Positions 3,001 through 64,000 of a stretch of DNA of 64,000 nucleotides are shown here, in pieces (the first letter of the stretch is position 1; each line of letters opens with the position of its first letter). The notes beneath the pieces were generated by a model. It made no database searches. It was not told the DNA's origin and was given only the letters and a program-made list of their open reading frames with translations. The stretch is taken from the NCBI GenBank assembly GCA_009746045.1, contig RPFO01001313.1, positions 186,001 to 250,000 of the forward strand. The letters are read 5' to 3'. Position numbers and translations under genes: made by a program. Origin of the DNA: Mesostigma viride (lineage: Eukaryota; Streptophyta; Mesostigmatophyceae; Mesostigmatales; Mesostigmataceae).

Positions 3001-6000
3001 GGAAGGGGGGGTTGTTCCTGGAAGGGGTAGTTGTTCCTGGAAGGGGGGGTTGTTCCTGGAAGGGGGGGTTGTTCCTGGAAGGGGTAGTTGTTCCTGGAAG
3101 GGGTAGTTGTTCCTGGAAGGGGTAGCTGTTCCTCAGTGATAGGGGAAGTGTTCCTGGAAAACCATGACATTGTTCCTCAAGCGGATCTGTAGATCAGACG
3201 TGGGCGGTTGAATTCTTCCTTATCGTCAGAAGCTAGGACGAACAGTTCAAGTAAAAAGGTTCTCGCCAGGCATGGGCACTTGGTTTGGATCATGGCGGAA
3301 ATGGCTCCTGGTTATATTTGGGAGGGATTAGAAATATCTTGGCGACATCCTGCTAGTAGTCTGGCAATGTCCTTGTGTGGCTGAGATCCACTTGCCCCTG
3401 CCCTTCACAATAGCTAGCAGTGGTTGCTGCATCTTGCTCAATTTCGCCCACATCTTACTACAACGCTCGCATCGATGGTTTAAACAAGCATCCATGAGTT
3501 TTGAGGGTTTTGCACTGACTGAGGTACGCTCGAAAAACAAAGAAGAGTTGTGTTCATAATCACGGGTCTTTGGGATCCGGGGATCGATCGTCCAACTGTG
3601 CCAAACAAACGATGAAACGATACTGCAAAAAATCATATTTAAAAATTGTAGTTAAACAAGGCGTCCGTCGCCCAAGTGTTTTGACTGGATGGGGCAACAA
3701 AATATCAAGCCGATCCAACGTGTAAAAACGAAATGTGTTTAAATCCCAGACTGACTTTGATGGCTGTACGTCTACCAAAAAAACAAAATCAAACTAATTA
3801 CATAAGTCAAACCCTGGTGGGTTTCTGGTTAGCAGTTTGTAGTAAGTTGTTAACAGTTTTCGGGCCAGACTTTGTTGGCCCCCCGCTCAAGTTTATAAAA
3901 GTGAGCGATTGCTGTACCCTGTACCGCACGTTATCTAATACATCATATGTTATCTAATACATCGATCATATGTCATCTAATACATCATATGTTATCTAAT
4001 GCATCGATCATATGTCATCTAATACATCATATGCTATATCTAATGCATCGATCATATGTTATCTAGTACATCATATGTTATCTAATGCATCGATCATATG
4101 TTATCTAATGCATCGATCATATGTTATCTAATACATCATACGTAATATTCTCTCTTTTACCCTTCATAGACCCCATACATAGCTGAACCTTAGCTCACCT
4201 CTTAGCTCCACTCTCGTACCTCTCGTTCCTTGGCATTGCAACCCACGGTGCAGTTGTGTTGCTGGACTATGATATCCGCCCACAAGGCTGCCATCTGTTA
4301 CCATGGCTTAAGCCTCATTGATTGCAGCCCACTAGTTGTTCCTACAATAATTGCTTCTGGTGTTGATGGCCACATATACGCCACCTGTCCCCTATTATAA
4401 GTCATGACACATACAGATCGAATTCCCTGCGGAGGCCCATGACTGCAGCTACTCAATCGTTGTTTCATTGCTTCATTCATGCCACTAAGCAGCCAACGTA
4501 TACAACAGGCCGCTACAATGCATCAGTACCACTGCCTTCATTGGCACAGCTGCTGCATGGTGTTGCCTGGCTGATGCTCGAATTCTGTTGACCATGCATA
4601 CACGCATTCAAACTCACAAACTAGGTGTTCTTTCGATTTGCATCGGTCGCAGGAACTCCCCCATGCCGGTGGCGGAGCACGAGCGCAAGGTGCGCCTCAG
4701 GCAGGGTTGTTTGCATTCTTCATTTGTATTCCATTCTTTAATAGTTGTATTGCATCCAATTTCATCCACCCACCTTGAACCAGCCACCTAGACACTGTTT
4801 CAGTTGTGGTTGGATCTTCTTCAGTTAAACGGCAACAGCCCGTCATTTGACTTTGCAGGCAATGTGGGCTGTTTGCCTGGAAAGAATCGTTCATTCAAAT
4901 AATAACATTATTTGAAACACACTTGCCGGTATAATGGGACATTGTCTCACAGACAACCATGGCCTGCGCCGAGTTTTCAAAGCCATGCAGCCTCCCCAAC
5001 GAGGCACTTAAATTAAGAGCATGTATGCCGATGTGAAGCCTTCTTAAACGGGAGGAATATGCGAAAGCTGGCCTTGAGACCATCATGGGCTTTGCTGTGT
5101 TATACTTTTGTGGGCCCAGATCGATCCCTGCATGGCTCGAAAGGCTCGCTTACTATTACTAGTCTAAGGCAAGCTATCGGTCGCTTGCTGGCTTGATCCT
5201 TACGCAAAAAGTGCTTCAGACTTGTGGTCACCATGGGTGCGCTTGCAGTTTTTACCTGTATCTCATGAACCGGCCTTTTGTCCTTTCTCAAATAATATCC
5301 CTCGCAGGCAGTGGAGGCAATGGAGAAACAAAGGGAGCGCCTCATCACCCTGAACGAGCAGTGGTCGGCCGACGGTTTCCCCTCTGTGTGGCCCCGCTAC
5401 GGCATCCACGTTGGCAAGGTCTACTCGGGCAACATCGGGTCGCAGGAGAAGATGAAGTTTGGCATCGTGGGCGACCCCGTCAACCTGGCGGCGCGTCTCG
5501 AGTCGCTCTGCAAGCACTTTGGTAAGTACTTGCATAACCTTGTCGCTGCTCAAGCACTTTAATTTGTCTACTTCGATGTATGCTAACGCCGTTGCTCTGC
5601 AAGCACTTTGAGTGAGTACCAGCATCACCTTGTCATTAGAGCTGCAGTTTGGTATGTTCGATCATTTTAACTTTGCTTGCTCATATGGGCTCTGTAGCTT
5701 GTTATAGCATCGGCGTTAAGGCAAGCATCAGAAGCGTGCTCCGTGTGAGCCACAGACCTGCAGTACATGTTGGTGTAACATAGCATGAAAATTTGTTATA
5801 CTCATGTTCTTTGCAATCATGAACTGAAGCGTTTGGAATTTCTCAAAGCATGCGAGAGAATTCCTCAAAGCAAGAACCTCAAATCCACCAGCCGTGCATC
5901 TTTTGCAGATCAACTGAACTTGGTGACATTGTGGCTAGCTCGTAGTATACAAGGCGCTATAGCCAGGCCGGCCCCTGGACCTGATTTTTTTTTTCCTGCT

Positions 6001-8544
6001 CGGACCCCCCGCCCACATCCCGATTTCCCCCCCTTCCACCGAGCCACCCGTGCACCCACCTACCCTCTGCCTGGCCCCTGCATGTGTTCACCCATGCACC
6101 AAACCAGCGATAGCTACCTGTTCACCAGCCAATTCATGCTCATGTGTTCATGCTCATGTTCATGCTCATGCTCATGCTCATGCTCATGCTCATGCTCATG
6201 CTATGCCATATTTGCTCTTACATATAGTTCACGCTCATGCTCATGCTATGCCATATTCGCTCTTACATCTGCCTGGGATCTGCCTGGGATCGCCCGGCTG
6301 GCAGCATAATAATGTGGTGCCTATGCGTTTAATAGTTCCATGCCATGCCACTCGCAGATAACATATGCAGAGGCTTGCCTAAGTTGCCCTCACATCCATC
6401 ACATGCATGGGTTACCCATGCAGCACATCGCTGGTGCCTATACATGTGAAACTGCGCATGATCGAACTGCATGCATGGTTCCTCTACCTCTAAACCGCTC
6501 TCCTCCGGGTGGGTTGCGCCTTGGTTCGGTCGCACATCATGTTTGGTCGGTCTACGATGATGGTTCGGTCGCTCCCCCACTGACCACTCCGTAATTTATC
6601 TCATCTCCATAATTGATCATTCTCAATAAATATGTACTAGTATGAAACATGCCGTTTGTACACACCTTATCACATGCAGAGCCGGTGTGCCTAATGCCCA
6701 ATAATTCACCTGTTGAGCGACCGATTGTTGGTCTAATAATACTGCAATGCGGGTATTTATGGACCGCATGTGAAGTATGGTCCACCATGGTTGAGCAACT
6801 ACTACTAGGTGATATTTCACACAGAAACCGATTTGTGGTCGTCTCTCTTGACTACTGCCCTTGCTGTGGAGTGTTGGGTACATCCGCACACATGCCTATG
6901 CAGAGGCCAAGAGCCTGGTCAGTAAACGAATAGATGCACAAACCATGTCGCCTGTGGGAGCCTGTCTTCTTTCTTTAATTAATTACCAGCAAGTACCCTC
7001 GGTACTTGCTCATCGGTGCACTCAATAATGCAGACGCCTGGTTATTATATAAACAGAGCCTGGTTGCATACAGGGCCTGGTTACATATAGAAAAGTGTGG
7101 ATAGTAAAGTGTATATAGTAATTAGAGTGGATAGTAAAGTGTATAGTAAAGAGAGGATACTAGTAAAGTGTATAGTAAAGAGAGGATAGTAAGGACTGTG
7201 TATAGATAGTAAAGAGAGGATAGTGAGCAGATGCATGCATGTACGAACCATGTACCATTTGCTCATCGGTGTACACATGCGTGCAGAGGCCAAGAACCTG
7301 GTGAGCAAGGAGATCTACGAGCCGGTAGCCCCCATGTTCCTGGGCCTGCCCCACGGCAAGGTGGCGGTCAAGGGGAAGCTGACGCCCGTCACCGTGTACG
7401 AGATCCTGTGCCGGTGAGTGGCTACACCCACACAGCAGAAGTGGGAAGATTTCTTTTAATGACTTCAGTGTGCATGGTGTTGCCTGCCAGTGTTTATGCA
7501 TGGGGCCCTGTGCCGGGGAGTTGTAGCTATCACATAGAAGCTAGCTAGAAATTCGAGGATATACATAACTCTTTCAAAGGGTTTTGTGGTGGTGCCTGTC
7601 ACTGTGCACTGTATCTTATGCCGGTGAGTGCAATGACTTGACAGTAACCAATCGGATTGAAGTGGGCATGCAAGCACTGGCATGAGCTAGTGCAGTCGCC
7701 CAGGCTGCCTAGTCATGGCCGGTTTGCCTGCTCGGCAGCAGGGGTCTGAGCCATGGGCAGGCTGCATACTGTATGCAGTCGCACATCCCTCACCCACCCA
7801 CCGCTGCGCACAGCATGCGTTGCATGTGTTTGTAGCTATCAGGGCATGAATTTGTGATCGCAGTGCCGGACTGTCAGAAGGGAAAATGTCCAGGCTGGTA
7901 TCGATAACAGTTGCATGTGGCAGGATCGATGCAGTGCAGCCTGACTGGACCCTCCATGCAGAGTCTGGCTATACCCTCCAGAGTGCTGGGTCTGACCCTG
8001 CATGCAGCCAGTGCAGACCGTAATTGGCGCAAATGACAACATTTCTGGCCCTGCGGCGAGAAACGTTAGAAAACTGGCTCTGTCCGAGTCATTGTTTCAG
8101 GAAGTGTATACAGCTGGTTTGATGAACCCCTGCTATCAATTTATACGTAGACTGCTGCGTGCCCGCGTGTGAACCCCAGCCATAGCTTCATGACATCAGT
8201 ACGCACATTAGTGCATGCATGCTTACGCGTGGGTTATTGTTTTACCTATAGGTTCATTACGCCTGTTTCGCCAAAATTGACGAATCCTTGCACGTGCATG
8301 CAGGCGGGAGGGCGCCTCTGAGGATTGTATCCAGATGTGCGCCCAGATGCAGGCCTGCATGGACCTAATCGACGAACGGGACTTTTGGTCTGCGATGGAC
8401 GCGCTGCAGACCGTGAAGCAACTGCAGCTGCGCGTGTGGGGGGCTGTCAAGAACTGCGCGCTGAAATACGAGGCGGCCATCCAGCGCTGCTGCCTTGACA
8501 GCAATGACGAATGGGACGGGATCGAGAGGATGGACTCGAAATAG
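62..8544 (+). CDS. Class III adenylate/guanylate cyclase, 3' portion (7 exons)
   Basis: Exons 62-182, 958-1062, 2073-2118, 4653-4689, 5308-5521, 7287-7413 and 8304-8544 (TAG stop). All junctions are GT-AG, phases agree at every join, and together they give 296 residues. The product is the catalytic domain of a class III cyclase, which makes cyclic nucleotide from ATP or GTP. It reads from FGKFVPKVVV, the usual linker before the domain, through MFT|DIANFTTIS (first metal-binding Asp, codon split by an intron) and IGDGIMAFW (second metal Asp) to GDPVNLAARLE, which supplies the transition-state Asn and Arg. About 80 residues follow the domain: a Cys-containing, probably helical tail (DCIQMCAQMQAC near its start). 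The 5' part, with any sensor and membrane segments, lies outside the window. It is a paralogue of the gene at 45104-64000. Closest in type to bacterial-style class IIIb enzymes. ATP as substrate is likely but not proven. Confidence 0.93.
1540..1725. repeat. Short degenerate repeats around TAGGATCCC, intronic
   Basis: The third visible intron side of gene 1 carries repeated TAGGATCCC cores alternating with ATCTACTATA-like strings and CCTAAGTGTTCT. It looks like a decayed local tandem duplication. No coding potential seen. Confidence 0.6.
1918..1962 (-). mobile_element. Retroelement 3' end fragment with TTAA tail
   Basis: A (TTAA)n run followed by TAGTCACGTGACTGCGTC. The same junction occurs at 38481-38520, where it ends a minus-strand ORF2 copy and forms a CACGTGAC-TGC-GTCACGTG stem-loop. 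Only the last few tens of bases are present here, inside an intron. Confidence 0.4.
2401..3130. repeat. Minisatellite of GTTCCTGGAAGGGG units, intronic
   Basis: Nearly 40 head-to-tail copies of an 18-21 bp unit. Copies differ mainly in the join after AAGGGG: TAGTT, GGTT or GGGTT. The array lacks stops in some frames and so gives long Pro/Arg/Asn-rich false reading frames. It lies in the intron between exons 2073-2118 and 4653-4689. Confidence 0.95.
3930..4143. repeat. AT-rich tandem repeat (ATCTAATACATCATATG)
   Basis: Alternating TATCTAATACATCATATG and TATCTAATGCATCGATCATATG units, about ten copies, in the same intron as the 2.4-3.1 kb minisatellite. Confidence 0.9.
5591..5634 (+). repeat. 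Decayed copy of an exon end plus its splice donor
   Basis: GCTCTGCAAGCACTTTG followed by GTGAGTACC and a CACCTTGTC string repeats the last bases of exon 5308-5521 and the first roughly 25 bases of its intron, 87 bp downstream. A weaker third copy of the exon end lies at 5542-5560. The copies sit in the intron and do not extend the frame. Confidence 0.8.
6130..6260. repeat. TCATGC hexamer repeat
   Basis: A run of TCATGC/TCATGT hexamers at 6136-6201 and a second short block around 6230-6250, separated by a duplicated TATGCCATATT-GCTCTTACAT segment. Confidence 0.85.
6889..6931 (+). repeat. Decayed upstream copy of an exon start
   Basis: ACACATGCCTATGCAGAGGCCAAGAGCCTGGT resembles the acceptor and first codons of exon 7287-7413, 380 bp ahead of it. 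It ends in a TAG soon after (CGAATAG). A further fragment (CTCATCGGTGCAC) lies near 7011. Confidence 0.8.
7085..7216. repeat. TATAGTAAAGAGAGGATAG tandem repeat
   Basis: Imperfect repeats of GTATAGTAAAGAGAGGATAG just upstream of exon 7287-7413. Confidence 0.85.
7591..7632 (+). repeat. Decayed downstream copy of an exon end and donor
   Basis: GCCTGTCACTGTGCACT then CTTATGCCGGTGAGTG mirrors the end of exon 7287-7413 (coding ...TPVTVYEILCR) together with its GTGAGTG donor, about 209 bp downstream of the original. Confidence 0.78.
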
Positions 8545-9490
8545 CCATGAAGGTTTGATGTAACATATTTGACGTGAGGAGACATGCAAATGAACCTTCA
8601 GGGCGCATGGCTCGCATGGTGTGCATGCCAACGCCCACTACCACCTCAGTATATAATAGTTTTCCACATGCACACGAACAAGTGTCATGTGCACATTTTT
8701 GGGAGCATGCATATGGCATGGTAGGCACTACACAATTTTTTTACTATATTGTAAATTTTTATGGATTTTCATTGTGAGCATCGATTAATTAATTAGTCAA
8801 GCTGGTTATTGTATAGCACCATGCTGAGCCGGGCCCAGCATACTCGAACACAAGGTGTTGCCCCCACACCTCCTACCTGGCCTCCAAGGCTGACACAGTC
8901 GCCAGCCTAGGTGCCGAGTTTCTTTCCGCCATGGCCCCCCTCCAAGTTCTGCACGCTGCTGCAGCTAGCTCTACTGCCGCCCCTGTGTACATGTGGCCGC
9001 TACGGTTTCCCGGCGGACGCAGCTAGGGCGGCACCGCATGTCGTTCCCCCCACTACGGGGGCAGTTTCCAGCGGCTGCTTATTAGGCCTTTCACCCCCGG
9101 ACCGTCGTTCACAAGCCCAGGATCCATCGCCAGCCCCACCCCTGACTCCTGAGGCTGGGAGTTTCCCGGAGTTGAAGCCATTGTGGCGATAGGCCCTCTA
9201 CCCTACCGAGGAGTTGGTTTGGACGGAAACTGCTTCTAGCCAAACACCCGACCAGGGCTTGACATTTGGTAGGAAAAATTAAGGCATAGATATTCCCGCC
9301 TTGCAGAATTACTGAACTCCTCATTGATTAATTAATTAAGAACATAACTCCGTCCAGGAGGAAGGGGCGCTTTGCTGAGTAGAGTAGTTAGGGTTATCTA
9401 GATTAGCTTAGAGTTAGCTTAGTAACTTCGGTTTCGCGGCTTCGCCCACCTCCATCCATCCAGCCAGGGAATATGTGCTACATGATCTCC
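8545..9490. other. Intergenic, no gene recognised; possible retroelement debris
   Basis: Downstream of the first cyclase. 8830-9040 has a short open stretch with an Ala-rich GAEFLSAMAPLQVL-like reading that may be old retroelement ORF1 sequence. 9325-9365 has a TTAA tail followed by ACATAACTCCGT, matching the 3' ends of the ORF1-only elements described below. Nothing else is supported. Confidence 0.5.
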
Positions 9491-9496
9491 CAACGG

Positions 9497-10540
9497 AGTC
9501 ATATTATAATTGAATTTAACTCCGTTGGGATTATACGTAGCGCATGGCCCTGAGAAGGGGGCCTATGGTTTTTAATACATTCTGGGCTACAACCTCAGTG
9601 CAGGTGGGGAGGTATACAGCCACCTGTTCTGGGTGCACAAGGCGCACGTGCACCTCCATGTATTCCAGCTATAACTAAGGTGCGGACACGGCCATGGGGT
9701 GGAAGCTAGACGGATTGTGGCTAGGCAATAGTAGCTAGGGCATGACATTTGTAAAGCTATAAATGCGATATGTGGTACGTGTGCAGGGTCCCATCATAGG
9801 CATACATGCATGCACATGGGCGTAGTAAGCCACGTCGGCTAATTAATGAAGCCTTACTAAGATTCTACACTACTGTTATTATAGATTCCCCTAGGCTGGG
9901 GCGCTATCCCCCTACTAGTAGGCTAGGTGCTGGGGTCCCTGGGGCAGGGGTCGCCTACCAGGGCTTGTGCATGGTCGATCATGAACGTAGATGACCGCCC
10001 CCTTCCAGTTTACCGGCGTCTTCCCCGCCGTCTGCCGGAGCTGCATGGAGGTAGGTCGGCCATAGCTCCCGTCGCCGTTGTTGATGGGCCAGGGTCAAGT
10101 CGTCGTCCAGCTCGTGTAGGAGGTCCCCCAAAGCCGCTTGCGACGCTTGAGGAACTCCAGCTAGCTTATTCGCCATGCATGGTGTCAAAGGTGAGGATCG
10201 AGAAGCGTTGGCGGCCAGCCTTACCCCGCGAGCGGGAAAGGCGGATCACCGGGGCCCCCGGCTTGACCTTACCGTTGAGAGACATGGGGGCACTATATAT
10301 AGGATGGTGTTCTCAAACGCCTTGGCAAGGGACTCGCTCGCCCGGTCCTCACCTTCTTGAAGTAGGTCGAAACTCGAAAGTGCTTGACGATGACGTTGCG
10401 GCTGCGCTTGTCGCTAGCTCGATCGGCCTCCTCGCGGAGGTCGAGCGTCTGCTGCTTGAGCAGTGCAGTGATGGCGGTCAGGTGGTGGTGGTGGTGTGGT
10501 TCGATTCAGCAGCATGGCGGCCCCGCGGGGAACTCCTTAA
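9497..10540 (-). mobile_element. ORF1-only non-LTR retroelement, 3' half, decayed
   Basis: Minus-strand relative of the element at 29792-31759. 10010-10530 matches the C-terminal half of its ORF1 with frameshifts, followed leftward by the same kind of 3' UTR. It ends with an ACTCCGTTGGGA hairpin and an AATT-rich tail near 9500. It is interrupted at 10541-10839 by another insertion and may continue to about 11300. Confidence 0.75.
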
Positions 10541-10839
10541 TTAATTAATTAATTAATTAAACTCGTGCTCCCGTTGGGGAGTCACGGAGCACCGAAGTGC
10601 TTTTAATCCCTGTGTGTGCACTACAGGAGAAAGGGCAGAGACCCCCAGTCTCCTTCATGCCAAAGGCATGCCACAGCTGCAATCGGGCGCGGCTAGCTAA
10701 AAGGACAGGCTAACGATCCGGCAAACTGTGGGTGCAATAAGACCCATGTGAGCATGTCATAGCAAGGAGCGTGGGCAAGTAATCTGAACATAGCCAGGGC
10801 GTAGCATGGCTGTACTAGAACTAGGCTAAGGCTATGGCT
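10541..10839 (-). mobile_element. Short 5'-truncated retroelement with 12-bp target duplication
   Basis: A (TTAA)n tail, then the CTCCCGTTGGGGAG hairpin and about 280 bp of 3' UTR shared almost base for base with 34945-35225. It is flanked by a perfect direct repeat GGAACTCCTTAA (10529-10540 and 10840-10851). This is what target-primed reverse transcription with 5' truncation leaves. Confidence 0.85.
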
Positions 10840-10851
10840 GGAACTCCTTAA

Positions 10852-11345
10852 GTACTACCTATTGTCTCCTTACTACGTATGTCGTATTGTCTTTACCATA
10901 ACGCATAACATACATAGGATAAAAACAAAGGCGACAAAACAGCCAGAATTTCAGCCCCACCAGGCGACCATTCATTCTTCTTTGCTGAAAAACCGGGCAA
11001 TGATGAAGAGGCCGCGCTCGATCCTGATCGAGGAGTCCCACCAAGATTTGCTGGCCAGCCTAAAGCCTTGCATCCTCCCCGAAATTCTCGTCTGGCCACA
11101 CCCCAGGCCAAAAGATCGGCCGGGTCTGCGCTGTCAGTCAGGCTCTTGGCAGTTATGGGCTACCCAGGCTGGGTCCCAGGCACCCCGCGCTATAGCCCGT
11201 GATCTCCTTATAAGGCAGATTCGCCTCGATTGACCTGTGATTCTTTTCGTACCGTAGTAGCTGCTGGCCCTGGCCTCAGGGCCTAGCTGTATGCATGCAT
11301 GGCAAGTCCTTCCCGGCCGGCATTGTCCGACTAAAAAAACGCAGC
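10852..11345. other. No gene recognised
   Basis: Between retroelement pieces. 10920-11220 is open in one frame but resembles nothing I know. It may be the 5' part of the interrupted element at 9497. Confidence 0.4.
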
Positions 11346-11351
11346 TCCACT

Positions 11352-11636
11352 ATATATTATAATAATATAATTACTTACAGCAGAGTGAAATCACTCAAAC
11401 CAAAGCAAACGCCCAGCTATAAACCTATATACAGAGCCATGTCAAATCTCTATACTACGATAAGACCAATGGAAACTCCTAACGGGAGGAACCTAATAGC
11501 CCTGCTGCACCGCAAAATCAGCCCGCGTACGGCGGAGCATGATGTCAGCCATGGCCCGAGTCAGCGCCACCGACAAGCGCTGACGCCAATATGACGTCCA
11601 GGTCCGCGCCGACCATGAGGCCCGCTGGCCCTCCAC
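11352..11636 (-). mobile_element. Tail of endonuclease-bearing retroelement (family A)
   Basis: Nearly identical, in inverse orientation, to the last part of the copy at 15296-16020: end of the coding region (TSYWRQRLSVALTRAM region) plus the 3' UTR with the ACTCTGCTGTAAGTAATTAT end. It is 5'-truncated at 11636. Confidence 0.85.
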
Positions 11637-11889
11637 TATATATACTACAAACTAAGTTACATCCCGTAAACCGGTAAACGGATACTACGGATTTTCATAC
11701 GCGCCGTAAGTTATACACTGAACGTATATTGAATACATATACTTGCCACCCGTAAGTAAGTAAGTAAGTACTTGCGTGTCATGCGCAAAGGCATGCCACG
11801 GAGTACTATGCTAATCTCATTAGAAAAAATAATTACACAAAAGTTAAAACAAATATCGTCTGCATCATTCCCCAACCATTAAGTGCTCA

Positions 11890-14306
11890 CTAGATGGGGA
11901 TGTAATCCTCATCGGAGCTGTCCTCTACTGTAATGGCAGACGAGGCGGTAGTGTAGCGGCTATCCTCAGGGCCAATAACCTCCACCTGCGGACTTCTACC
12001 CTGGCTAGCAACGGGCCGCGGGGCCCGTGGGGAGAAAACAGGAGCATACCCCTCAGGAAGGTGCTTATCGCAGGTGGCAGCCCATTTCTCCTTGTCAATC
12101 ATGCGGGCGCGGAGTACGGATAGTCCCAGAAGCCCTGCATCTTCAAGCAGTTGTGTCAGTGACATAGGTCCGGGTCGCGCCGCGCCGGTGCTGGGCGCGC
12201 GCAAGTTTGCCAGTGGGTTGCGATGGGACAAGGGGACCCTGCCATAGTAGGAGGAGGTGTCTACCTGGCCTGGCCCGTCTTAAGCCCCCCGGCAGGGCCC
12301 ACATCGGTATTCACCTGGTCTGTGCGGGCAAGATGGCCGGCAAAGCGGAGCTAGGCGGCGGTGTCGGATGGTATGGGTGACAAGAGGGAGCTCGCAGACT
12401 GTAGAGCTCGGCCCGGGTGCGGCGTTCTTAAGGTAGCGGACGCCGAGGATATGACAGAGCATTCGTGTGACGGTGCCGTCAAGCTGCTGGCTCAGCGCCT
12501 GGTCCAGGGTCCACGCCTCGCAGCCGTAAAGGAGGATGCTGAGGACAAGGGCCTTGAACGGAATGCGCTTGCGTCGCTCACTCAGGTAGCGGCAGGTCCA
12601 GAAACTGTCGAGGCGGCGGAGGGCCGCCCAGGCCTGGCCAATGCGGGGGTTGATGTCGTCGGCCGTGGAGGGAAGCCATGCAGCTGCCAAGGAGCAGTTG
12701 AAGCGAGTCGCCGGGGGGACGGGGCTGCCGTCCAGCAAGAGGATCAAGGGTGGGTGGGGCTATCCCAGCAGGGAAGCCGATGGCCATGACCTCCGTTTTC
12801 TTGCTGATCATAAGCCCCACCGCCCGCGCTTCCAGTGATAACCTGTCTAGCCAGAGTTGCCGGGCTGACTCCGGGGTTTCCACGAGCGTCGTGTCATCAG
12901 CGTAGATCAGATCGCTCAGGCGGTAGGGTGGATCAACCCCGCCATAGCTGGCGTACTCCATGACCTCAATCCCCGGCCCGGGGCGCCCCTCCATCTGGGC
13001 GAAGCGGGCTTGTGCACGCCGCATAATATAGTCCGCCATAATGATGAATAGATATGGGGAGAGCACACAGCCCCGCTGCCACACCCTGGTGTGCAGGGGG
13101 AACGCCGGAGTGACGCCGTCGGCGGTACGGACCTGGGCTTGGGACCCTTCATAGAACTGGCGGATGATCTCAACGATGTACGATGGGACACGGAACAGGT
13201 GAAGGACCACCCACAGGGCGTCCCATATATAACCGTATCGAATGCCTTGGTGTAATCCACGAAGATCAATAGCAATGGCAAGAGGCCGGGGGCCAGGCGG
13301 CCCACTTCCTCGATCAGGCGGCGTGCGGTAATGGTGACCATAACACAATTGCGACCAACAAGGAAGCCCATCTGGGACTCGCCTAGGTGGGGATCGAGGC
13401 TGGCGCGCATGCGGTTCAGCAGGAGATGCATGAAGACTTTCAGCACGCAGCTTTGGAGGCATATACGCCGCGGTAGTTGCCAGTAATAATCCGCGGCGGA
13501 CCCCTTGCCCTTGTAGAGCATGACCCGAACAGCGGTCTTCCAATACGTCGCGGTGGGGGGAGGCCATCTCGTAGAATCCGGTTGCAAACACCCCGGAGGA
13601 AAGGCTCAAGCTCAGGCATCCTAACCACCTCCGGTGAAAAATTGTCCACTCCCATGCATGGCAGCATCATTGCGAAGGGTGGAGATGGCAGCAGCCCATT
13701 CCTGGGGAGTCCACTCGTCATGTGGGGGCCGCGCGTCCACCAGGGGGCCGGAGAGCGGTGGGACCAGGTAGTCCGTCTCACTGGTGGGCGCCTGCGGGGG
13801 CTCAATGGGGCCGCCTCGGCTGGCCGCAGGGCGTGCAGCTGCAGCGGGGTCAAGCGGGGGGGGCATGCCAGGGGCCCCCGATAGTTTGGCCTGGGAGCTG
13901 AACCAAATCTCAAGCTAGGCGTTCACTGGGGGTGCCCGGGATGTCAGCCCGTTGCGTTTCCCACCGTCCGGTGAGACGGTCGAGAGAGCGCCAGGCCGCC
14001 TTGTGCTGGTTGGCGGCCGTGTGGCGATTGATTTCTGCGGCAATTGTCTCCACCTCCTCCGCATGAGCGGCAGTATATATATGCTTGAGTAAGCCGTTCC
14101 TGGTACGGGTACAGGTCCTCCCTGCGGCGGCGGGCCTGCGCTAGCGCCAGCCGGGCGGCGACCACCCAGGCGTCGCGCAGGTAGAGCGGGGCTGGTCGGG
14201 CGCGGGATTGCTCGGGGAGAAGCTTAGAGCCAAGCTCCACCGATCGCATGAACAGTTCGTAGGGTGGCGTTAGATCTACACCGCGATCTGCATCCAGGTA
14301 CATCAA
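11890..14306 (-). pseudogene. Non-LTR retrotransposon ORF2 with reverse transcriptase, frameshifted
   Basis: Read right to left. 14306-13944 gives the usual charged stretch before the RT. 13590-12580 gives the RT fingers and palm: GFLVGRNCVMVTITARRL, motif A FVDYTKAFDTV, motif B QRGCVLSPYLF and motif C YADDTTL. Then comes the thumb-side signature YGCEAWTLDQ...LDGTVTRML, and 12231-11890 gives a C-terminal region ending IPI-stop. At least two frameshifts break it, one next to an expanded TATATA near 13230. The upstream endonuclease domain is missing, so the copy is 5'-truncated and dead. The YG-E-W signature is typical of LINE-type RTs with an apurinic endonuclease. Confidence 0.92.
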
Positions 14307-14344
14307 AGGTTACGCGTCCACGAAGGCAGACCACGAAGGCAGAC

Positions 14345-14620
14345 CACGCCCGTATACATGCTTTACGGCACGTGTACGGGCCGTAAATTTTACGGCCCGT
14401 TTATACGGCAAAAGTATACGGACCGTAAGCTTACCAGTGTCGCAGGCTTACACTCTTATACGGAGAAGTATATTTTGCGGCCCGTTTCGTACGGCAAAAG
14501 TAAACGGGCCGTAAGCTTATTATATATACTGTCGCAGGCTTACGCCCGTATATATGGGAAAAGTATACGGGCCGTAGATTTTACGGCCGTTTACGGAAAA
14601 AGTATACGAGCCGTAAGCTG
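14345..14620. repeat. Palindromic tandem repeat (TACGGCCCGT / ACGGGCCGTA)
   Basis: Repeated AAAGTATACGGGCCGTAAG and TTACGGCCCGTTTA strings with CTGTCGCAGGCTTACG spacers. Related pieces lie at 11655-11725 and 19355-19400, each beside an ORF2 fragment. Confidence 0.8.
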
Positions 14621-14689
14621 CACGAAAGTTACAAACAACGTCTGCATCATGCCCCATGCAACCATATAGTCACGTGGATGTATAAAACT

Positions 14690-15290
14690 CTTAATTTCTT
14701 CAGGGTTCTTCTTCTTTTCGGGTTTTTTCCTTATGTTGCATGCCAATCTCACCTCCGTTATTTATCATTCTCAATGAGTATATAAAACTCAACTGAGCTT
14801 TCCTCAGACTAGACTCGGTAATGGCAGACGAGGCGGTAGTGTAGCGGCTATCCTCAGCCGGGCCCTTAACCTCCAGGCCTGAGGACTTCTACACTGCATT
14901 CTACCAATGGGCCGCGGGGCCCGCCCGCGTGCATGTGGAGAAAACAGGAGCATGCCCCACAGGAAGGCATCGCAGACGGCAGCCCATTTTTCCTTGTCTA
15001 TCATCATGCGGGCGCGGAGTACAGATAATTCCAGAAGCCCTGCATCCTCTTGAGCAATTGTGTCACATAGGTCCGGGTTGCGCCGCGTCGGTGCGCAAGC
15101 CGGGCGTGCGCAAACTTGCCAGTGGGTTGCGACGGGACAAAGGGACCCTGCCATAGGAGGAGGTGTCTTAGACTAGTACCTGGTTGGCCAGTCCTTAGCC
15201 CGCCCGCAGGGCCCACATCGGTATTTACCTGGCCTGTGCGGGCAAGATGCCCGGCAAAGTGAGAGGAGACGGCCGGTGTCGGATGGTATA
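14690..15290 (-). pseudogene. Retrotransposon ORF2 C-terminal fragment
   Basis: 15290-14804 on the minus strand repeats the C-terminal part of ORF2 seen at 12360-11890 (FAGHLARTGQVNTD, then the LSVLRARM-DKEKWAAVCD region), with frameshifts. 14690-14800 is a conserved 3' module ending in TCATTCTCAATGAGTATA that also ends the B-family copies at 16020 and 17550. Confidence 0.8.
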
Positions 15291-15295
15291 TATAT

Positions 15296-16020
15296 ATGGG
15301 TGGCCTTTCCTGCATGGGGGGCCAACAGAATCAGAATTGGTATTTGTATTTGCACACTGTCCTCCTGACGGTGGTGCTCGCCATGATTCGGTCGGTTTTC
15401 CCCCACGCGAACATCCGGTCCGAGGATGCGGATGGCGCTGCCTTCTATTCCCCCAACCACCGGCCTGACATCGTGGTGCTGGACTTTGAGGGGGGTGGCC
15501 GGCATCTGCTTATCGACGTTTCGGTGGCGCGGCCCTTGGCTCTTAGCCACGTGGCTGGGGCCTCCCTCACGGCAGGTTACACGGCGGACCGGGCGGAGCG
15601 GGCCAAGCTCCTGGCCTACGGCGACGTCGGGCACCATCGTGTGGTGCCCTTTGTCCTGGAGGAGTTTGGGGCCATGGGGCCCCTGACCTCCGCCTTCTTC
15701 AAGGAGTGTTGCCGGCGGCTCCGGGAGGACCGGCTGGACCTGGAGGGCCAGCGGGCCCCATGGTCGGCGCGGACCTGGACGTCATATTGGCGTCAGCGCT
15801 TGTCGGTGGCGTTGACTCGGGCCATGGCTGACATCATGCTCCGCCGTACGCGGGCTGATTTTGCGGTGCAGCAGGGCTATTAGGTTCCTCCCGTTAGGAG
15901 TTTCCATTGGTCTTATCGTAGTATAGAGATTTGACATGGCTCTGTATAGAGGTTTATAGCTGGGCGTTTGCTTTGGTTTGAGTGATTTCACTCTGCTGTA
16001 AGTAATTATATTATTAATAT
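15296..16020 (+). mobile_element. Retroelement 3' end with restriction-like endonuclease (family A)
   Basis: 15296-15883 is open for 195 residues. It starts inside a zinc-knuckle region and continues NHRPDIVVLDFEGG...HLLIDVSV. That RPD...D layout is the catalytic core of the PD-(D/E)xK endonuclease found C-terminal to the RT in R2/NeSL-like and Dualen/RandI non-LTR elements. The RT itself is absent, so this is a 5'-truncated copy. After the TAG comes a 3' UTR ending in TAAGTAATTATATTATTAAT. It abuts a B-family copy tail to tail at about 16020. Confidence 0.8.
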
Positions 16021-16990
16021 ATATTCATTGAGAATGATAGATTACGGAGGTGAGATAGGCATGCAACATAAGGAAAAACCCGAGAACTGGGAGAATAACC
16101 CTGAAGAAATTAATAGTAATCTGACACAGACATCCAAGGATCACGCCAGCGGCACAAGGTACAACTAACTTATACATCACAAAACTACACGCAGCAACAG
16201 CGCTGCCGGCCACCATGCAGGCCTGGAAGGAATCTAGACCGCATGGGTCGCGACAAAGTCGGCCCGGGTGCGGCGGAATAACACATCAGCCACGGTGCGA
16301 GTGAGGGCGAGTGACAGACGCTGCCGCCAATACGAGGACCACGTGCGGGCCGACCACGGGGCGGTCTGACCCTCGAGGTCGAGGCGGTCTTCACGGCGCT
16401 GGCAGCACTCGTGGAAAAACTCCGCTGTCTTGGGGCCCATGGCCCCGAACTCCTCAAGGACAAAGGGGATGACCCGGTGGGGCCCACATTGCCGTAGGAG
16501 GCAAACTTGTCGCGCTCAGCCACAGCGGCAGCAGCGCCGGCATCCACAGCCGCCCGGAGGATGTGGCGACCGGAAAGCGGCCGAGCCACGGAGACATCGA
16601 TGAGCAGGTGGCAACCCTGCCCGTCGTAGTCAAGCACGGTAATGTCGGGGCGGTGGTTGGGTGAGTAGAGGGCGGCCCATCCGCGTCCTCGCACTTAATG
16701 GTGGAGTGGGGAAAGACCGACCGAACCATGGCACACACACCCGGAGGAGAGCGGTATGGAGATAGAGGAACCAGTTCTGGTTCTGCTGGCCACCCATGCA
16801 CGCGATGTAGTGCGTCCCAGTAGTATCCAGAGCAAGCCCGCAGCTGCCGCAGGACGCACCCGCCGTGATGAGAGGTTGCGGGGCAAAGAGCTGGTGGCGG
16901 AGAGCGATGGCGTAAAGGGCCGGAACCAGTGTGAACAAAGGGCTCATGGGGAGGGCGCGCAGGAATGCGGACCCCACGCTCCCCTAAGGG
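16020..16990 (-). mobile_element. Retroelement 3' end with restriction-like endonuclease (family B)
   Basis: Minus strand. 16977-16800 has CGSCGLALDTTGTHYIAC, a CCHC zinc motif. After a frameshift near 16690 comes NHRPDITVLDYDGQG...LLIDVSV and the conserved C-terminus to about 16236. The 3' UTR ends at 16020 in a TCATTCTCAATGAATATA module. Protein-level similarity to family A is clear, but the UTRs differ. Confidence 0.8.
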
Positions 16991-17145
16991 AAACGGAGTG
17001 AAGCCAGCTCTCCCTGATCGTTCAAGCTCGCATGCAGACCCATCCAGTCGGCACAGTGTAGTATACCCGCGTAGGTCTTTTGTTGTTTTTCATGAACGCA
17101 GGCAGGGAAGATATTAAAAGAGCTTAATATATATATTAATAGAGC

Positions 17146-17556
17146 GGAGTTTTTCCACGAGTGCTGCCAGCGCCGTGAAGACCGCCTCGACCTCGAGGGT
17201 CAGACCGCCCCGTGGTCGGCCCGCACGTGGTCCTCGTATTGGCGGCAGCGTCTGTCACTCGCCCTCACTCGCACCGTGGCTGATGTGTTTATTCCGCCGC
17301 ACCCGGGCCGACTTGTCGCGCACCACGCGGTCTAGATTCCTTCCAGGCCTGCATGGTGGGCCGGCAGCGCTGTTGCTGCGTGTAGTTTGTGATGTATAGT
17401 TAGTTGTACCTTGTGCCGCTGGCGTGATCCTTGGATGTCTGTGTCAGATTACTATTAATTTCTTCAGGGTTATTCTCCCAGTCATCGGTTTTTCCTTATG
17501 TTGCATGCCTATCTCACCTCCGTAATCTATCATTCTCAATGAATATATATTAAAAA
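17146..17556 (+). mobile_element. Family B tail, inverted copy
   Basis: Near-identical inverse of 16020-16435: the last coding part (GPRIGGSVCHSPSLAPW reading), 3' UTR and terminal TCAATGAATATATATT. It joins the family A copy at 17556 tail to tail, mirroring the 16020 junction. Confidence 0.85.
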
Positions 17557-18058
17557 TATAATTACTTACAGCAGAGTGAAATCACTCAAACCAAAGCAAA
17601 CGCCCAGCTATAAACCTATATACAGAGCCATGTCAAAGCTCTATACTACGATAAGACCAATGGAAACGCCTAACGGGAGGAACCTAATAGCCCTGCGCAC
17701 CGCAAAATCAGCCCGCGTACGGCGGAGCATGATGTCAGCCATGGCCCGAGTCAGCGCCACCGACAAGCGCTGACGCCAATATGACGTCCAGGTCCGCGCC
17801 GACCATGGGGCCCGCTGGCCCTCCAGGTCCAGCCGGTCCTCCCGGAGCCGGCAACACTCCTTGAAGAAGGCGGAGGTCAGGGGCCCCATGGCCCCAAACT
17901 CCTCCAGGACAAAGGGCACCACACGATGGTGCCCGACGTCGCCGTAGGCCAGGAGCTTGGCCCGCTCCGCCCGGTCCGCCGTGTAACCTGCCGTGAGGGA
18001 GGCCCCAGCCACGTGGCTAAGAGCCAAGGGCCGCGCCACCGAAACGTCAATAAGCAGA
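17556..18058 (-). mobile_element. Family A tail, inverted copy
   Basis: Minus-strand copy of 15530-16020: 3' UTR, then the C-terminal coding part up to the ARPLALSHVAGASL region. It is cut at 18058 where a second partial copy begins. Confidence 0.85.
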
Positions 18059-18240
18059 TGAATATATATTAAAAATATAATTACTTACAGCAGAGTGAAA
18101 TCACTCAAACCAAAGCAAACGCCCAGCTATAAACCTATATACAGAGCCATGTCAAAGCTCTATACTACGATAAGACCAATGGAAACGCCTAACGGGAGGA
18201 ACCTAATAGCCCTGCTGCACCGCAAAATCAGATGAATATA
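18059..18240 (-). repeat. Direct duplication of the family A 3' UTR
   Basis: ATATATATTAAAAATATAATT onward repeats 17543-17690 almost exactly, 514 bp further on, then runs into an AT dinucleotide tract at 18236-18257. Confidence 0.85.
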
Positions 18241-18254
18241 TATATATATATATA

Positions 18255-19320
18255 TATGGGTGACAAGAGGGAGCTCGCAGTAGAGCTCGGCCCGGGTGCG
18301 GCGCTCTTGGTAGCGGACGCCGATGAGGATGTGACGGAGCATTCGAGTGACTGTGCCGTCATGAAGCTGCTCGCTCATCGCCTGGTCCAGGGTCCATGCC
18401 TCGCAGCCGTAAAGGAGGATGCTGAGTGAGGACAAGGGCCTTGAACAGCATGCGCTTGCGCCGCTCATTCAGGTAGCGACATGTCCAGAACCTGTCGAGG
18501 CGGCGGATCGAGGGCTGCCCAGGCCTGGCCAATGCGGGGGTTGATGTCGTCGGCCGTGGAAAGTCTCAGGGGAGCCAGCTGCATGCCAAGGAGCTTGAAG
18601 CGAGTCGCCGGGGGGACGATAGGGTTGCCGTCCAGCAGCATTGGCCATGGCCCATGGGGGGGAGGAGGGTGGGTGGGGTCGGGTCCCAGCGGGGAAGCCG
18701 CATTAATCATGGCCATGACCTCCGTTTTCTTGCTTATCATAAGCTCCACCGCCCGCGCTTCCAGTGACAAGCTATCTAGCCAGAGTTGGGAGGACTCCGA
18801 GGTCGCCATGAGCGTCGTGTCATCATCGTAGATCAGAGCGCTGTCAGTTGGTAGGGCGGATCAACCCCGCCCTAGCTGGCGTACTCGATCCGTGATCTCG
18901 ATCCCCGGCCCGGGGCGCCGCCCGGCCCCTCCACCCGGGCAAAGCGGGCTTACTTGTGCACGGCTCATAATGTCCACCATAATGATGAATAGATATATGG
19001 GGAGAGCACGTACACAGCCCTGCCACACCCCGGTGTGCAGGGGGAATGCCGGAGTGACGCCGTCAGCGGTACGGACCTGGGCTTGGGACCCTTCATAAAA
19101 CTGGCGGATGATCTTAACAATGTACGATGGGACATGGAAGAGGTGGAGGACTACCCATGTACAGGGCGTCCCATATAACCGTATCGAATGTCATGGTGCA
19201 ATCCACGAAGATCATGCAATAGCAATGGCAAGAGGCTGGGGGCCCGGCCAGGCGGCCCACTAATTCCTCAATCAGGCGGCGCGCAGTCACGGTGACCATA
19301 GCACAATTAATTGGTTTTTA
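18255..19320 (-). pseudogene. Second retrotransposon ORF2 copy, heavily frameshifted
   Basis: Near copy of 12370-13340. It shows the YGCEAWTLDQAMSEQL signature, a damaged motif C region near 18825 and the motif B surroundings (SPHISIHHYGGHYEPC reading). Motif A survives only as FVDCTMTFDTV (19180-19220), so the catalytic Asp context is eroded. Many small indels, often at TA or GC steps. Confidence 0.88.
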
Positions 19321-19444
19321 TAACAGTCATGGTGACCATAACACAGTTAATATTGGCTTACGCTCGTATACGGGAAAAGTATACGAGCCACTGATCCACT
19401 TGTACCTCGGCATGCCACATATCACCGGCCAGCACCATTAAGCA

Positions 19445-19735
19445 GCGGCGCCTGCAGCTAGCTTAGGGCACTTAGTAGGCCGCACCGGACCAGGTAGACA
19501 CCTCACGTGGCCCCTCTGCAGGTTTGCGACCAGCTCAGCCCGGCCGGCACCTCCTCATGCGTGGGCCGGGCCCAGCGATGCTATCTAGACGCTGGGCCGC
19601 AAGGCCCGCACTTTCAAAGAACAGCTAGTAGAGGACATGGGGGGGCTAGGCCTCTCCGTGATCTGAAACAAGATGATGGACAAGGCCAAGTGGGCTCAGG
19701 TCATAGAGGAATTAAAATCAATTAATAGAGGACAA
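19445..19735 (+). pseudogene. Retrotransposon ORF2 C-terminal fragment, plus strand
   Basis: Reads through ...DQVDTS, RPAQPGRH and MRGPGPAM-like segments in shifting frames with stops. It matches the end of the ORF2 at 38722-39357, giving an opposite-strand fragment next to the ORF1-only element that follows. Confidence 0.6.
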
Positions 19736-20112
19736 CGAACCCCCCCCCCCCCCAGTGGGGAAGTGCCCGCGTGTCTGCAAACGCGGGAAGCATGCTAGAC
19801 CAACTGAAGACGCACACGCTGATATCACGCAATATTATGGCGAGCAAACGCTCCTCCGCGCAACGCAGCCTGGCGGCTGCGCTCAGCCCTGAAAATACGT
19901 CTGCAGCTCCGGCTGCAGCTTCGCCTTCCAGCCCCGAAGGCAGCGGCGCCACTAGCCAAGCCGGCCTAGTGCTCGCCCAGCCCCCGGCCCCCCCTAAGCA
20001 CACCTGGAATTGTACTACATTTTTCAAATTGTACTTCAGTTTTGAAAGTTGCATTTTCATGCATTTAAAGTTTCAACTAAAGTCTTTGAGGAAAAAAAAG
20101 TTCGTCGGCGGC

Positions 20113-20860
20113 CGGCACACCGGCACACCGGCACACCGGCACACCGGCACACCTCAAATTGCATGTATGCACACACCTTTGCACATGCAATTGTTATCCA
20201 TGGGATTTATGTAGGTGGATGGGTCATGCAAGGGTTACCTAGATGCTCATGACACCGTGGCACCGTGGCATCGTGCCACCGTGCCACCGTGCCACCGTGC
20301 CACCTCAAAAGTTGCATATAAACACACATATTTGCACATACAATGGTTATCCATTGGGATTTATCAAGGGTAATGGGTCATGCAAGGGTTACCTAGACAT
20401 GCTCATGACACCGTTGCATCGTGGCATCGTGCCACCGTGCCACCGGCACACCGGCACACCGGCACACCGGCACACCGGCACACCGTTGCACCTCAAATTG
20501 CATATAAACACACACCTTTGCACATGCAATTGTTATCCATGGGTTTTATGTAGGTGGATGGGTCATGCAAGGGTTACCTAGATGCTCATGACGTACACCA
20601 TGGCACCGTGGCATCGTGCCACCGTGCCACCGTGCCACTGTGCCACCTCAAAAGTTGCATATAAACACACATATTTGCACATACAATGGTTATCCATTGG
20701 GATTTATCAAGGGTAATGGGTCATGCAAGGGTTACCTAGACATGCTCATGACACCGTGCCACCGTGCCACCGTGCCACCGTGCCACCGTGCCACCGTGCC
20801 ACCGTGCCACCGTGCCACCGTGCCACCGTGCCACCGTGCCACCTCCACAACGGTATGAAA
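20113..20860. repeat. Left subterminal octamer arrays with 150-190 bp higher-order units
   Basis: Runs of GGCACACC and GTGCCACC octamers separated by a core of about 110 bp (CTCAAA-TTGCAT-ACACAC... GGTTACCTAGA-ATGCTCATGAC). Cores start near 20152, 20303, 20491 and 20645. The last octamer run spans about 20755-20842. Confidence 0.9.
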
Positions 20861-20870
20861 GTGCCAAAAA

Positions 20871-22950: not shown

Positions 22951-22956
22951 AATCGC

Positions 22957-23652: not shown

Positions 23653-23664
23653 TTTATGACAGGG

Positions 23665-23849
23665 GAAATCCGGCTGTTATTTTACTAAAGGTATATTACA
23701 ATAAGTGCAGTTCTTGGCGTTTGGAATCATGACATTGCTTGTGCTATTGCTCTTGAATTGCATTTTACCAAAGGAATATTACAATAAGTGCAGTTCTTGG
23801 CGTTTGGAATCATGACATTGCTTGTGCTATTGCTCCTGAATTTAAGTGC

Positions 23850-23850: not shown

Positions 23851-24660
<810 letters not shown>

Positions 24661-26092: not shown

Positions 26093-26096
26093 CTTT

Positions 26097-26362: not shown

Positions 26363-28000
<1,638 letters not shown>

Positions 28001-36017: not shown

Positions 36018-37263
36018 CATCCATCCATCCATAGTTCCATCCATAGTTCCATCCATCCATCCATCCATCCATCCATCCATCCACCCACCCACCCACCCAC
36101 CCACCCACCCACCCACCCACCCACCCACCCACCCACCCACCCACCCACCCACCCACCCACCCACCCACCCACCCACCCACCCACCCACCCACCCACCCAC
36201 CCACCCACCACACCCACCCACCCACCCACCCACCCACCCACCCACCCACCCACCCACCCACCCACCCACCCACCCACCCACCCACCCACCCACCCACCCA
36301 CCCACCCACCCATCCACCCACCCACCCACGTACCCACCCACCCACCCACCCACCCACCCACCCACCCACCCACCCACCCACCCACCCACCCACCCACCCA
36401 CCCACCCACCCACCCACCCACCCACCCACCCACCCACCCACCCACCCACCCACCCACCCACCCATGCACCCACCCACCCACCCACCCACCCACCCACCCA
36501 TGCCCACCCACCCACCCACCCACCCACCCACCCACCCACCCACCCACCCACCCACCCACCCACCCACCACACCCACCCACCCACCCACCCACCCACCCAC
36601 CCACCCACCCCCACCCACCCACCCACCCACCCACCCACCCACCCACCCACCCACCCACCTGACCCACCCACCCACCCACCCACCCACCCACCCACCCACA
36701 CCCACCCACCCACCCACCCACCCACCCACCCACCCACCCACCCACCCACCCACCCACCCACCCACCCACCCACCCACCCACCCACCCACCCACCCACCCA
36801 CCCACCCACCCACCACCCACCCACCACCCACCCACCCACCACCCACCCACCCACCCACCCACCCACCCACCCACCCACCCACCCACCCACCCACCCACCC
36901 ACCCCATCCATCCATCCATCCATCCATCCATCCATCCATCCATCCATCCATCCATCCATCCATCCATCCATCCATCCATCCATCCATCCATCCATCCATC
37001 CATCCATCCATCCATCCATCCATCCATCCATCCATCCATCCATCCATCCATCCATCCATCCATCCATCCATCCATCCATCCATCCATCCATCCATCCATC
37101 CATCCATCCATCCATCCATCCATCCATCCATCCATCCATCCATCCATCCATCCATCCATCCATCCATCCATCCATCCATCCATCCATCCATCCATCCATC
37201 CATCCATCCATCCATCCATCCATCCATCCATCCATCCATCCATCCATCCATCCATCCATCCAT
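36018..37263. repeat. 1.25-kb tetranucleotide array: (CCAT)n, (CCCA)n, (CCAT)n
   Basis: CCAT units with GTTCCATCCATA breaks to 36081, CCCA units with sparse slips to 36903, then nearly pure CCAT to 37263. It starts directly on the TTAATTAATTAA tail of one retroelement and ends at the 3' hairpin of another in the same orientation. Confidence 0.97.
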
Positions 37264-38480: not shown

Positions 38481-39520
38481 TTTAATTAATTAATTAATAG
38501 ACACGTGACTGCGTCACGTGAGCATAAGTCCTCAGTGGGAGGGGAACATGGGATGGAATGGATGGTATAAGCTATCTAGGTCCTAGTTACAGGGGTGTGG
38601 GCACCGCGGCCCGAATCGCTATGAATGCCATACTTGGTCACGCGCGGAGCCCCCACAGGCTTGGGGGTGGTCTCCTTCATCACTACTTGCCATCTATCCT
38701 TGCGCACCATCTGCCTCCATATTACAGACAAACCAGGAGGCTGCCCGGGGGTGAGCCCGTCACGTCTAGTGTAGCACATGTCCATGCCGAGTCTATCACG
38801 AAAAGTCCACGGGTGGCGGCCCTGCCGCGCGCCGGGCCGGGGGCACGCCAGGTTAGGACATATCGCCCAGGCTGGGCGGGCTTGGTGCCAGCTAGTCTAT
38901 CTGAGGTATCTACCTGATCTGTGCGGGCCAGGTGCCCGGCTAGCGGGCCCAGGCGCCTGTGCCTAATAATGTGGGAAACATAGGGCAAATCAGCGTACAA
39001 ATCCTCATTACTAATGTGCAAACCAAAGGGGAGGTTAAGGGCCTTGCGCAGCATCTTGGTGACGGCGCCGTCGAGTCGTTGCTCCAGCTCCTGCGTCAGT
39101 GCCCACGTCTCGGCGCCGTAGGTCAGGATCGTCAGAATGACGACCTTGAAGAGGTCACGCTTGACGATCCGGGGTAGGGCGGGGTTGCTCCACCAGCGGC
39201 GGTGGTCATGGAGGTGCGCCCACGCCATGCCGATCCGTGTCGTCATGTCGTCCTCGCAGTCGGGAAGCCAACTGCCGAGCAGCTTGAAGCGGCCTGAAGG
39301 AGGGTAGTTGACCTCGGCATCGTCTCGGAGGCGGAGTGTGGGTGGGGGCCCTGCCATGCCGAGGGCCAGGGCCTCCGTTTTGGGGCTGATTTCTAGACCA
39401 ACCGCCCGAGCCTCGAGCGCCAGGCAGTCCAGCCAAAGTTGGGCAGACTCCGGCTTCTCGATGAGCGTGATGTCGTCGGCATAAATGAGGTCAGCTAGTA
39501 AATTCTGCTTGTTAGTCAGC
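38481..39520 (-). pseudogene. Retrotransposon ORF2 3' part with TTAA tail
   Basis: From about 39510 down to 38722 one frame is open: LLADLIYADDITLIEKPESA, ...EISPKTEALALGM..., FKLLGSWLPDCEDDM, LTYGAETWALTQELEQRLDG, HIIRHRRLGPLAGHLARTDQ, RPAQPGRYVLTW-like end. It starts at RT motif C, so it is 5'-truncated, but this part is undamaged. The 3' end has the CACGTGAC-GCA-GTCACGTG stem-loop (38500-38520) and a TTAATTAATTAATTAA tail. Confidence 0.88.
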
Positions 39521-39584
39521 CCCCCTTCCCCAAGCTCGTTCGTGATCGCTAGGCCAGGGGCACGGCCTGCAATGATTTATCTAG

Positions 39585-43400: not shown

Positions 43401-43402
43401 CC

Positions 43403-45103: not shown

Positions 45104-64000
<18,897 letters not shown>

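Follow-up and report, generated by a model that had tools for sequence, protein, structure and literature searches.

Can introns lengthen through small duplications that reach across the borders of the neighbouring exons? The question is raised by a 64,000-nucleotide stretch of the Mesostigma viride genome (hereafter the window; G000:C236:186001-250000, in a 440-Mb assembly with 2,243 contigs), in which the first-pass annotation had described introns of two cyclase genes that carry copies of the adjoining exon ends together with their splice sites. These copies, here termed echoes, are confirmed as real and are more extensive than was first noted.

Gene 1 is present as the 3′ part of a class III cyclase gene (61..8544, plus strand), with exons at 61-182, 958-1062, 2073-2118, 4653-4689, 5308-5521, 7287-7413 and 8304-8544, the last of which holds the stop codon. 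Gene 2 (45104..64000, plus strand) is a cyclase gene that runs beyond the end of the window and has 14 exons within it, at 45104-45136, 46347-46452, 46768-47163, 47982-48107, 49108-49214, 55289-55519, 56639-56781, 57840-57914, 58724-58813, 60130-60250, 60795-60899, 61671-61716, 62980-63016 and from 63900 onward. Both models are based on translation and paralogue alignment and, with seven and 14 exons, contain 19 complete introns with 38 borders. Each gene is translated into a single cyclase reading, except that exons 3 and 4 of gene 2 (47154-47163 and 47982) do not match in phase when the best donor, a run of G followed by GTGAG, is used, possibly owing to a homopolymer error or to the use of another donor. 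The gene 2 exons joined to the 3′ exons of gene 1 yield a 731-residue reading that matches Guanylate_cyc (PF00211, E 3.6e-18), with a dCache match under its cut-off, and its best relatives of solved structure belong to the class III cyclases, e.g. CyaB (3r5g, E 8.6e-26).

Two paralogues on the same contig, A (C236:76-106 kb) and B (C236:10-40 kb, minus strand), have an exon structure in common with genes 1 and 2; G1 and G2 denote genes 1 and 2 with their flanks beyond the window. A DNA match at C236:58176-58336 (minus strand) indicates a fifth cyclase copy, a likely further paralogue near C236:58 kb with the exon-12-end repeat described below, and the DNA search also found a weaker, distant match (73%) at C1802:1498629-1498746. 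Between genes 1 and 2 lie repeats and, on the minus strand at 12578-13666 and 38722-39576, ORFs in which YADD motifs like those of reverse transcriptases were spotted by eye and which are probably remains of LINE-type retroelements. Very long tetranucleotide arrays lie at 36049-37262, 26577-27850, 24063-24542, 47671-47891 and 62401-62661, and 44 matches to a dynein heavy-chain domain were found, as would suit a flagellate.

Copies of exon edges in the adjoining introns

The exon-only edge of 45 nt (or the full exon, if shorter) was compared with its own masked intron. Within the window, three of 19 donor edges and six of 19 acceptor edges matched at p<1e-4, i.e. nine of 38 borders in all, while no match at this level was seen for exon middles (0/27, with one below 1e-3), reverse complements (0/38) or edges set against non-adjacent introns (0/152). 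Among the four paralogues (A, B, G1 and G2), own-intron matches at p<1e-4 were obtained for 21 of 49 donor edges and five of 49 acceptor edges, a significant difference (p 4.5e-4). At p<1e-3, 31 of 98 edges matched their own intron vs none of the 562 controls; exon middles, named beforehand as the control by which the claim should be judged, gave 0/72 at this threshold, and edges compared with other introns 0/392. Four borders were dropped as uncertain (the ends of exon 3 and the starts of exon 4 in both A and B), and the models omit B intron 3 and gene 1 upstream of exon 7. The pattern extends beyond the two genes of the window, not only to the other C236 paralogues but also to three other cyclase groups on other contigs (donors 4/34, acceptors 0/35 at p<1e-3). 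This survey covered cyclase genes, with groups X, Y and Z represented by some exons only and L046 and L047 left out.

The places listed in the first-pass annotation amount to 21 coordinates, if its six-unit array is counted at both ends, and 15 of these were borne out when each was tested against its own border (intron-wide p<=0.002, uncorrected for the 21 tests): 5591, 7591, 48690, 58871, 63091, 63281, 6889, 46110, 46629, 56466, 59911, 59987, 60619, 63687 and 63796, with 48690, 59911 and 59987 borderline (p 0.001-0.002). Weak signals were obtained at 56849 (p 0.2), 57932 (0.06) and 57381 (0.02), and 5542 gave no signal separate from the copy at 5591. The six units are a true tandem array of ~85-92 bp (55516..56059, plus strand) that begins four bases inside exon 55289-55519; as an exon echo the array is not significant (p 0.2 and 0.6 at its two ends), because the unit holds only these four exon bases. 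The statement that echoes occur in most introns was too strong, as edge matches at p<0.01 were obtained in nine of the 19 introns of the window. One might suspect chance similarity or errors of assembly, since roughly one in four of the listed places is weak when taken singly; for the set as a whole, this explanation is refuted by the 31/98 edges against 0/562 controls, and the copies are mostly diverged and present on several contigs, so that its probability is negligible.

All individual echoes in the window lie on the plus strand. In gene 1, exon 5308-5521 has a donor echo at 5594..5634 that comprises 17 exon and 23 intron bases (88%, p 7e-8), and exon 7287-7413 is echoed on both sides, by a donor copy at 7594..7630 (30 exon and seven intron bases, 78%), by an acceptor copy 385 nt upstream at 6888..6925 (84%) and by a second acceptor copy at 7006-7038 with five exon bases only. 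The acceptor echoes of gene 2 include near-perfect copies for exon 46347 (46118..46145, CAG + 25 nt, 27/28), exon 46768 (46629..46654, CAG + 23 nt, 25/26) and exon 60795 (60616..60647, CAG + 29 nt, 30/32), a decayed copy for exon 56639 (56469..56516, 73% across 48 columns) and two for exon 63900 (63691..63720, 83%; 63796..63832, 84% over 37). Part of the start of exon 60130 is contained in a tandem array of 2.1 units of 75 bp (59868..60021). An open stretch noticed by eye at 59869-59917, directly before an echo of the exon-10 start, would read VAQFYVLYLKMWPTVQ and is a possible lost exon. On the donor side, exon 58724-58813 is echoed at 58876..58914, with a left flank in common with a gene B echo, and exon 62980-63016 at 63092..63123 (91%, left flank common with gene A) and again at 63280..63307 (82%).

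The excess of donors could reflect the way in which splice sites are chosen: if the spliceosome tends to use whichever competent site is made first, an extra donor would be harmless and an extra acceptor often not. Acceptor echoes are also under-counted, as illustrated by B intron 13, where two more decayed copies of the acceptor and the start of exon 14 are visible by eye beside the one that was aligned.

Tandem units, decay and minisatellites

In the alignments, donor echoes comprise 9-56 exon and 0-23 intron bases, except for the one array with four exon bases, and acceptor echoes 5-29 exon bases, starting mostly 3-15 bases before the exon. None of the aligned echoes is a whole-exon duplicate with both splice sites; each has one exon edge and one splice site. 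Repeated spacings (98, 196, 280; 79, 163, 261; 95, 194; 63, 126; 44, 88) reveal head-to-tail arrays, with junction-spanning units mostly of 44-125 bp, and every stage is represented, with almost perfect repeats at one extreme and isolated, decayed exon edges at the other. Six donor echoes are near-complete tandem duplications in both their exon and intron parts (~91-100% alike, also according to TRF), with units of 63 bp (A exon 12), 98 bp (A exon 15), 79 bp (B exon 15), 44 bp (G2 exon 14), 95 bp (G2 exon 15) and 85 bp (G2 exon 6). Whereas the first-pass annotation allowed that a few copies fit ordinary tandem duplication, most of them can be explained by such duplication, decayed to different degrees. 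A preferred unit of ~95 bp was considered, given a median shift of 96 at borders (25, hand-listed) vs 73.5 within introns (60; KS p 0.003), but was not built on because short shifts are poorly detected at borders; no common spacing was found at homologous borders (permutation p 0.78).

Beyond position +10, the intron part is still significantly similar in 15 of the 25 cases examined (p<=0.04), and not in the other 10 (p>0.05), of which six (A9, B4, B6, B7, B8 and G2.13) are 85-100% identical in their exon part. Moreover, five acceptor echoes of gene 2 start exactly at CAG or CCAG. Such sharp-ended echoes look more like patches than like decayed duplications. However, selection acts on the exon copy and spares the echo, so that the two should remain recognisable as a pair for roughly twice the time of a pair of intronic copies; many sharp edges can thus be accounted for, if not with certainty, without invoking a particular mechanism.

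The decay of the echo donors looks neutral. GT is retained in 34 of 41 donor echoes (24 borders, score >=34, at most three per border), and 33.7 are expected from sequence identity; in a hand-picked set of 32, GT is present in 28, and these donors are not significantly weaker than the real ones (p 0.066). Selection might nevertheless keep the echoes as alternative or regulatory splice sites, as some echoes at introns 9, 13 and 14 have part of their flank in common between the deeply diverged A/B and G1/G2 genes (B-G2 p 1e-7 for intron 9 and 4e-16 for intron 14, A-G2 7e-6 for intron 13; many pairs compared, uncorrected). These echoes thus appear to predate the split between A/B and G1/G2, a long life for neutral sequence. 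Against a function as decoys, GT retention is what identity predicts, the exon-12 end is copied 68, 6, 0 and 0 times in A, B, G1 and G2 (up to three mismatches of 23), and all paralogues tested lack exon-only donor echoes (p<0.01) for exons 5, 10 and 11, which together makes such selection improbable. Insertion of introners or transposons, with target-site duplications as the exon-edge repeats, would fit the presence of two copies of ~26-40 nt at distances of ~80-400 nt, which resemble such a duplication. This reading was set aside and has very little probability: exon edges do not match other introns (0/392 at p<1e-3, for edges and not intron bodies), the repeats range from ~20 to 70 nt in length, and many cases are multi-unit tandem arrays.

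The clearest expansion is found in A intron 12, where exon 12 is followed by 68 copies of its own end with the donor, 67 of them with GT, chiefly in units of 75 and 55 nt. This intron is 4,753 nt long, compared with 841 nt for B intron 12 with its six copies, and the pair bears out the proposal that introns lengthen through duplications across exon borders. In G2 intron 12, one more decayed copy was recognised in a cross-gene alignment. An acceptor-side counterpart is B intron 10, in which an 85-bp unit bearing an acceptor plus 25 nt from the start of exon 11 is repeated at least 10 times. Overall, of the 43 TRF rows with a period >=20 that touch introns in A, B, G1 and G2, 10 contain a match to the edge of their own exon, representing eight distinct borders, with three rows being parts of the one A exon-12 array, and no array unit matched the donor edge of a non-neighbouring exon of the same gene. 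Together with the A intron 12 array, this upholds the suggestion that some minisatellites start as exon-edge copies. A 61-bp unit repeated 93 times (49600-55280) takes up the greater part of intron 5 in gene 2, right up to the acceptor of exon 6; this array is outside the set that matches an exon edge.

Signs of exchange between copies and the probable origin of the echoes

The junction in use need not be the original one. In B intron 12, the sequence after the last copy matches the start of G2 intron 12 (p 1e-5), and the donor GT of this last copy is now AT. Judged by this match, the ancestral junction, its donor now dead, apparently lies ~365 nt into the intron, and the working junction would be a copy. 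At exon 15, the working end of A is identical to the B echo at +163 (46/46 nt) and the working end of B to the A echo at +280 (34/34 nt), including an I/V difference in the protein. This reciprocity indicates that echo and working edge have swapped places or sequence, within an array or between genes. Concerted evolution is thereby indicated for exon 15 and, by similarity of echoes to their own exon, for exon 7. It is not indicated for exon 9, as the A and B echoes have a common change that is missing from both exons, and the comparison with exon 7 shows that homogenisation of echoes is not uniform across exons. Gene B (L038) has an echo 204 nt past the end of exon 9 with FKEVRHME-like coding, as in A and G2, while its own exon 9 has changed, and this echo is possibly a fossil of an older exon 9.

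The most probable explanation, held with some confidence, is that local tandem duplication is combined with selection for an intact exon-proximal splice site and with exchange between echoes and the working edge. Local tandem duplications, mostly of ~45-125 bp and produced by slippage or break repair, would occur in introns prone to repeats, and some of them would span the junction with an exon. The two copies would be equal at the start; splicing would choose the copy attached to the body of the exon, leaving the mRNA unchanged and the duplication tolerated. The remaining copy or copies would turn intronic and then either decay neutrally or expand into a minisatellite, whose members could swap sequence with the working exon edge. 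The intron would thus lengthen at its ends, and the junction in use may itself be a copy, with the ancestral one dead deeper in the intron. Selection alone would yield echoes of exon edges and none of exon middles, as a duplication within an exon lengthens the protein or shifts the frame and is lost, while one at the border leaves a complete junction beside the exon body.

A second question is whether borders are favoured as sites of duplication. Of 21 TRF arrays with a period >=40, seven reach over an exon border, with overlaps of 4-44 nt, vs 1.9 expected from the share in length (p 0.002). This excess is a minimum, because at least four of the 14 arrays counted as intronic are themselves seeded by an exon edge, and it is based on few arrays in related, non-independent paralogues. 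In introns without a border echo, repeated windows are found in 4/269 cases within the 5′ 50-350 nt vs 23/260 at the 3′ end. The rate of donor echoes climbs with intronic repeat density across seven gene groups (rho 0.82, p 0.02), a correlation that is partly circular because the density includes border-derived arrays; at more than 400 nt from borders, repeated windows amount to 3/48 in A, 89/192 in B, 30/246 in G1 and 4/107 in G2, so that these rates span 4% to 46% by gene and do not follow the echo rate in A. Locally repeated intron windows make up 29% without and 9% with masking, and the verdict on uniform duplication therefore depends on how the giant arrays are counted. Uniform duplication without any border effect was not cleanly accepted, given the seven border arrays vs 1.9 expected and the difference between 5′ and 3′ ends.

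Targeting of mutations to junctions would make borders true hot spots. Here, breaks would be repaired from the sister, the allele or a paralogue via the conserved exon, with synthesis into the heterologous intron and end joining, leaving an exon edge with its splice site, a foreign piece of intron and again the exon edge. Besides the excess of border arrays, this fits the cases in which homology ends sharply just past the splice site, the presence in A and B of each other's exon-15 end, and the relation between exons and introns of the paralogues. Identity reaches 92-95% in exons 10, 11, 12 and 14 of the pair formed by genes 1 and 2, and 98-100% in exons 10-12 of the A-B pair, against 56-84% in the other exons compared within these pairs; across the paralogues, exons 10-14 are 73-100% identical, many at or above 90%, while the introns of G1-G2 and A-G2 do not align and those of A-B align in part (B-G pairs lay outside this comparison), which suggests probable exon-limited gene conversion at exons 10-14. 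Several echoes, however, are plain full-unit tandem repeats, the excess comes from few arrays of related genes, and none of the inserted stretches of intron was assigned to a paralogue by a dedicated search, so that targeting is considered rather unlikely. Longer persistence of exon-anchored arrays and true targeting could both explain the border excess, and the former is ranked above the latter. The claim of a recurring pattern centred on splice junctions hence stands in that edges match and middles do not, but the focus on edges is partly due to selection and a targeted process is not established.

Tandem duplication with retention of the exon-proximal site might be taken a step further, tentatively and with clearly less confidence than the basic scheme. 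The exon edge, being under selection, would act as a permanent master copy, and exchange with it would preserve the intronic array far longer than ordinary repeats; echoes would in turn write changes into exon ends, as with the I/V difference of exon 15, and the junction in use would migrate along equivalent sites. If so, splicing must choose by position and not by strength. Both the lengthening of introns and the neglect by splicing of nearby perfect copies of splice sites are hard to watch in natural genes. The cyclase genes provide natural ladders of two to 68 near-identical donors and ~10 tandem acceptors beside the working sites, so that position effects in splice-site choice become readable from RNA, and they make visible a route from coding sequence to intronic satellite DNA, which may be copied back.

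Comparison with known systems

In plants, patch-mediated or paired-nick tandem duplications are short and local, with lengths of tens to ~100 bp, and in these respects resemble the units found here; they are not known to be centred on splice junctions. Introners are likewise repeated sequences tied to introns, but differ in that the cyclase edges match their own intron only (edges and not intron bodies having been compared).

A further likeness is offered by human genes in segmental duplications, for which internal tandem repeats at exon-intron boundaries have been reported (PMC2812944). These repeats are described as being of minisatellite type, lying across exon-intron boundaries of recently duplicated paralogues and altering gene structure. 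The cyclase repeats, too, have head-to-tail units over a coding exon end and copy numbers that differ among paralogues. The human repeats, as described there, give rise to new introns or to variable exons, and to alternative transcripts, while the cyclase repeats pile up in existing introns at conserved positions, many of them derived from the junction. Intron gain by tandem genomic duplication of exonic AGGT segments (reviewed in PMC3443670; for Drosophila, PMC2891723) is similar in that a splice or proto-splice site is duplicated in tandem and one copy turns intronic. There the result is a new intron, whereas in the cyclase genes an existing intron is extended: no new intron position was seen in the four paralogues, and borders and phases are homologous at nearly all located exons (with exons 3, 4 and 9 as exceptions). 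In the literature searched, which lacked most subscription journals, no earlier description was seen of junction-derived arrays that fill existing introns across a gene family. Beside these systems, the cyclase genes represent a well-supported and unusually clear case of introns that grow at their ends by junction-spanning tandem duplication, with some of the duplicates becoming satellites.
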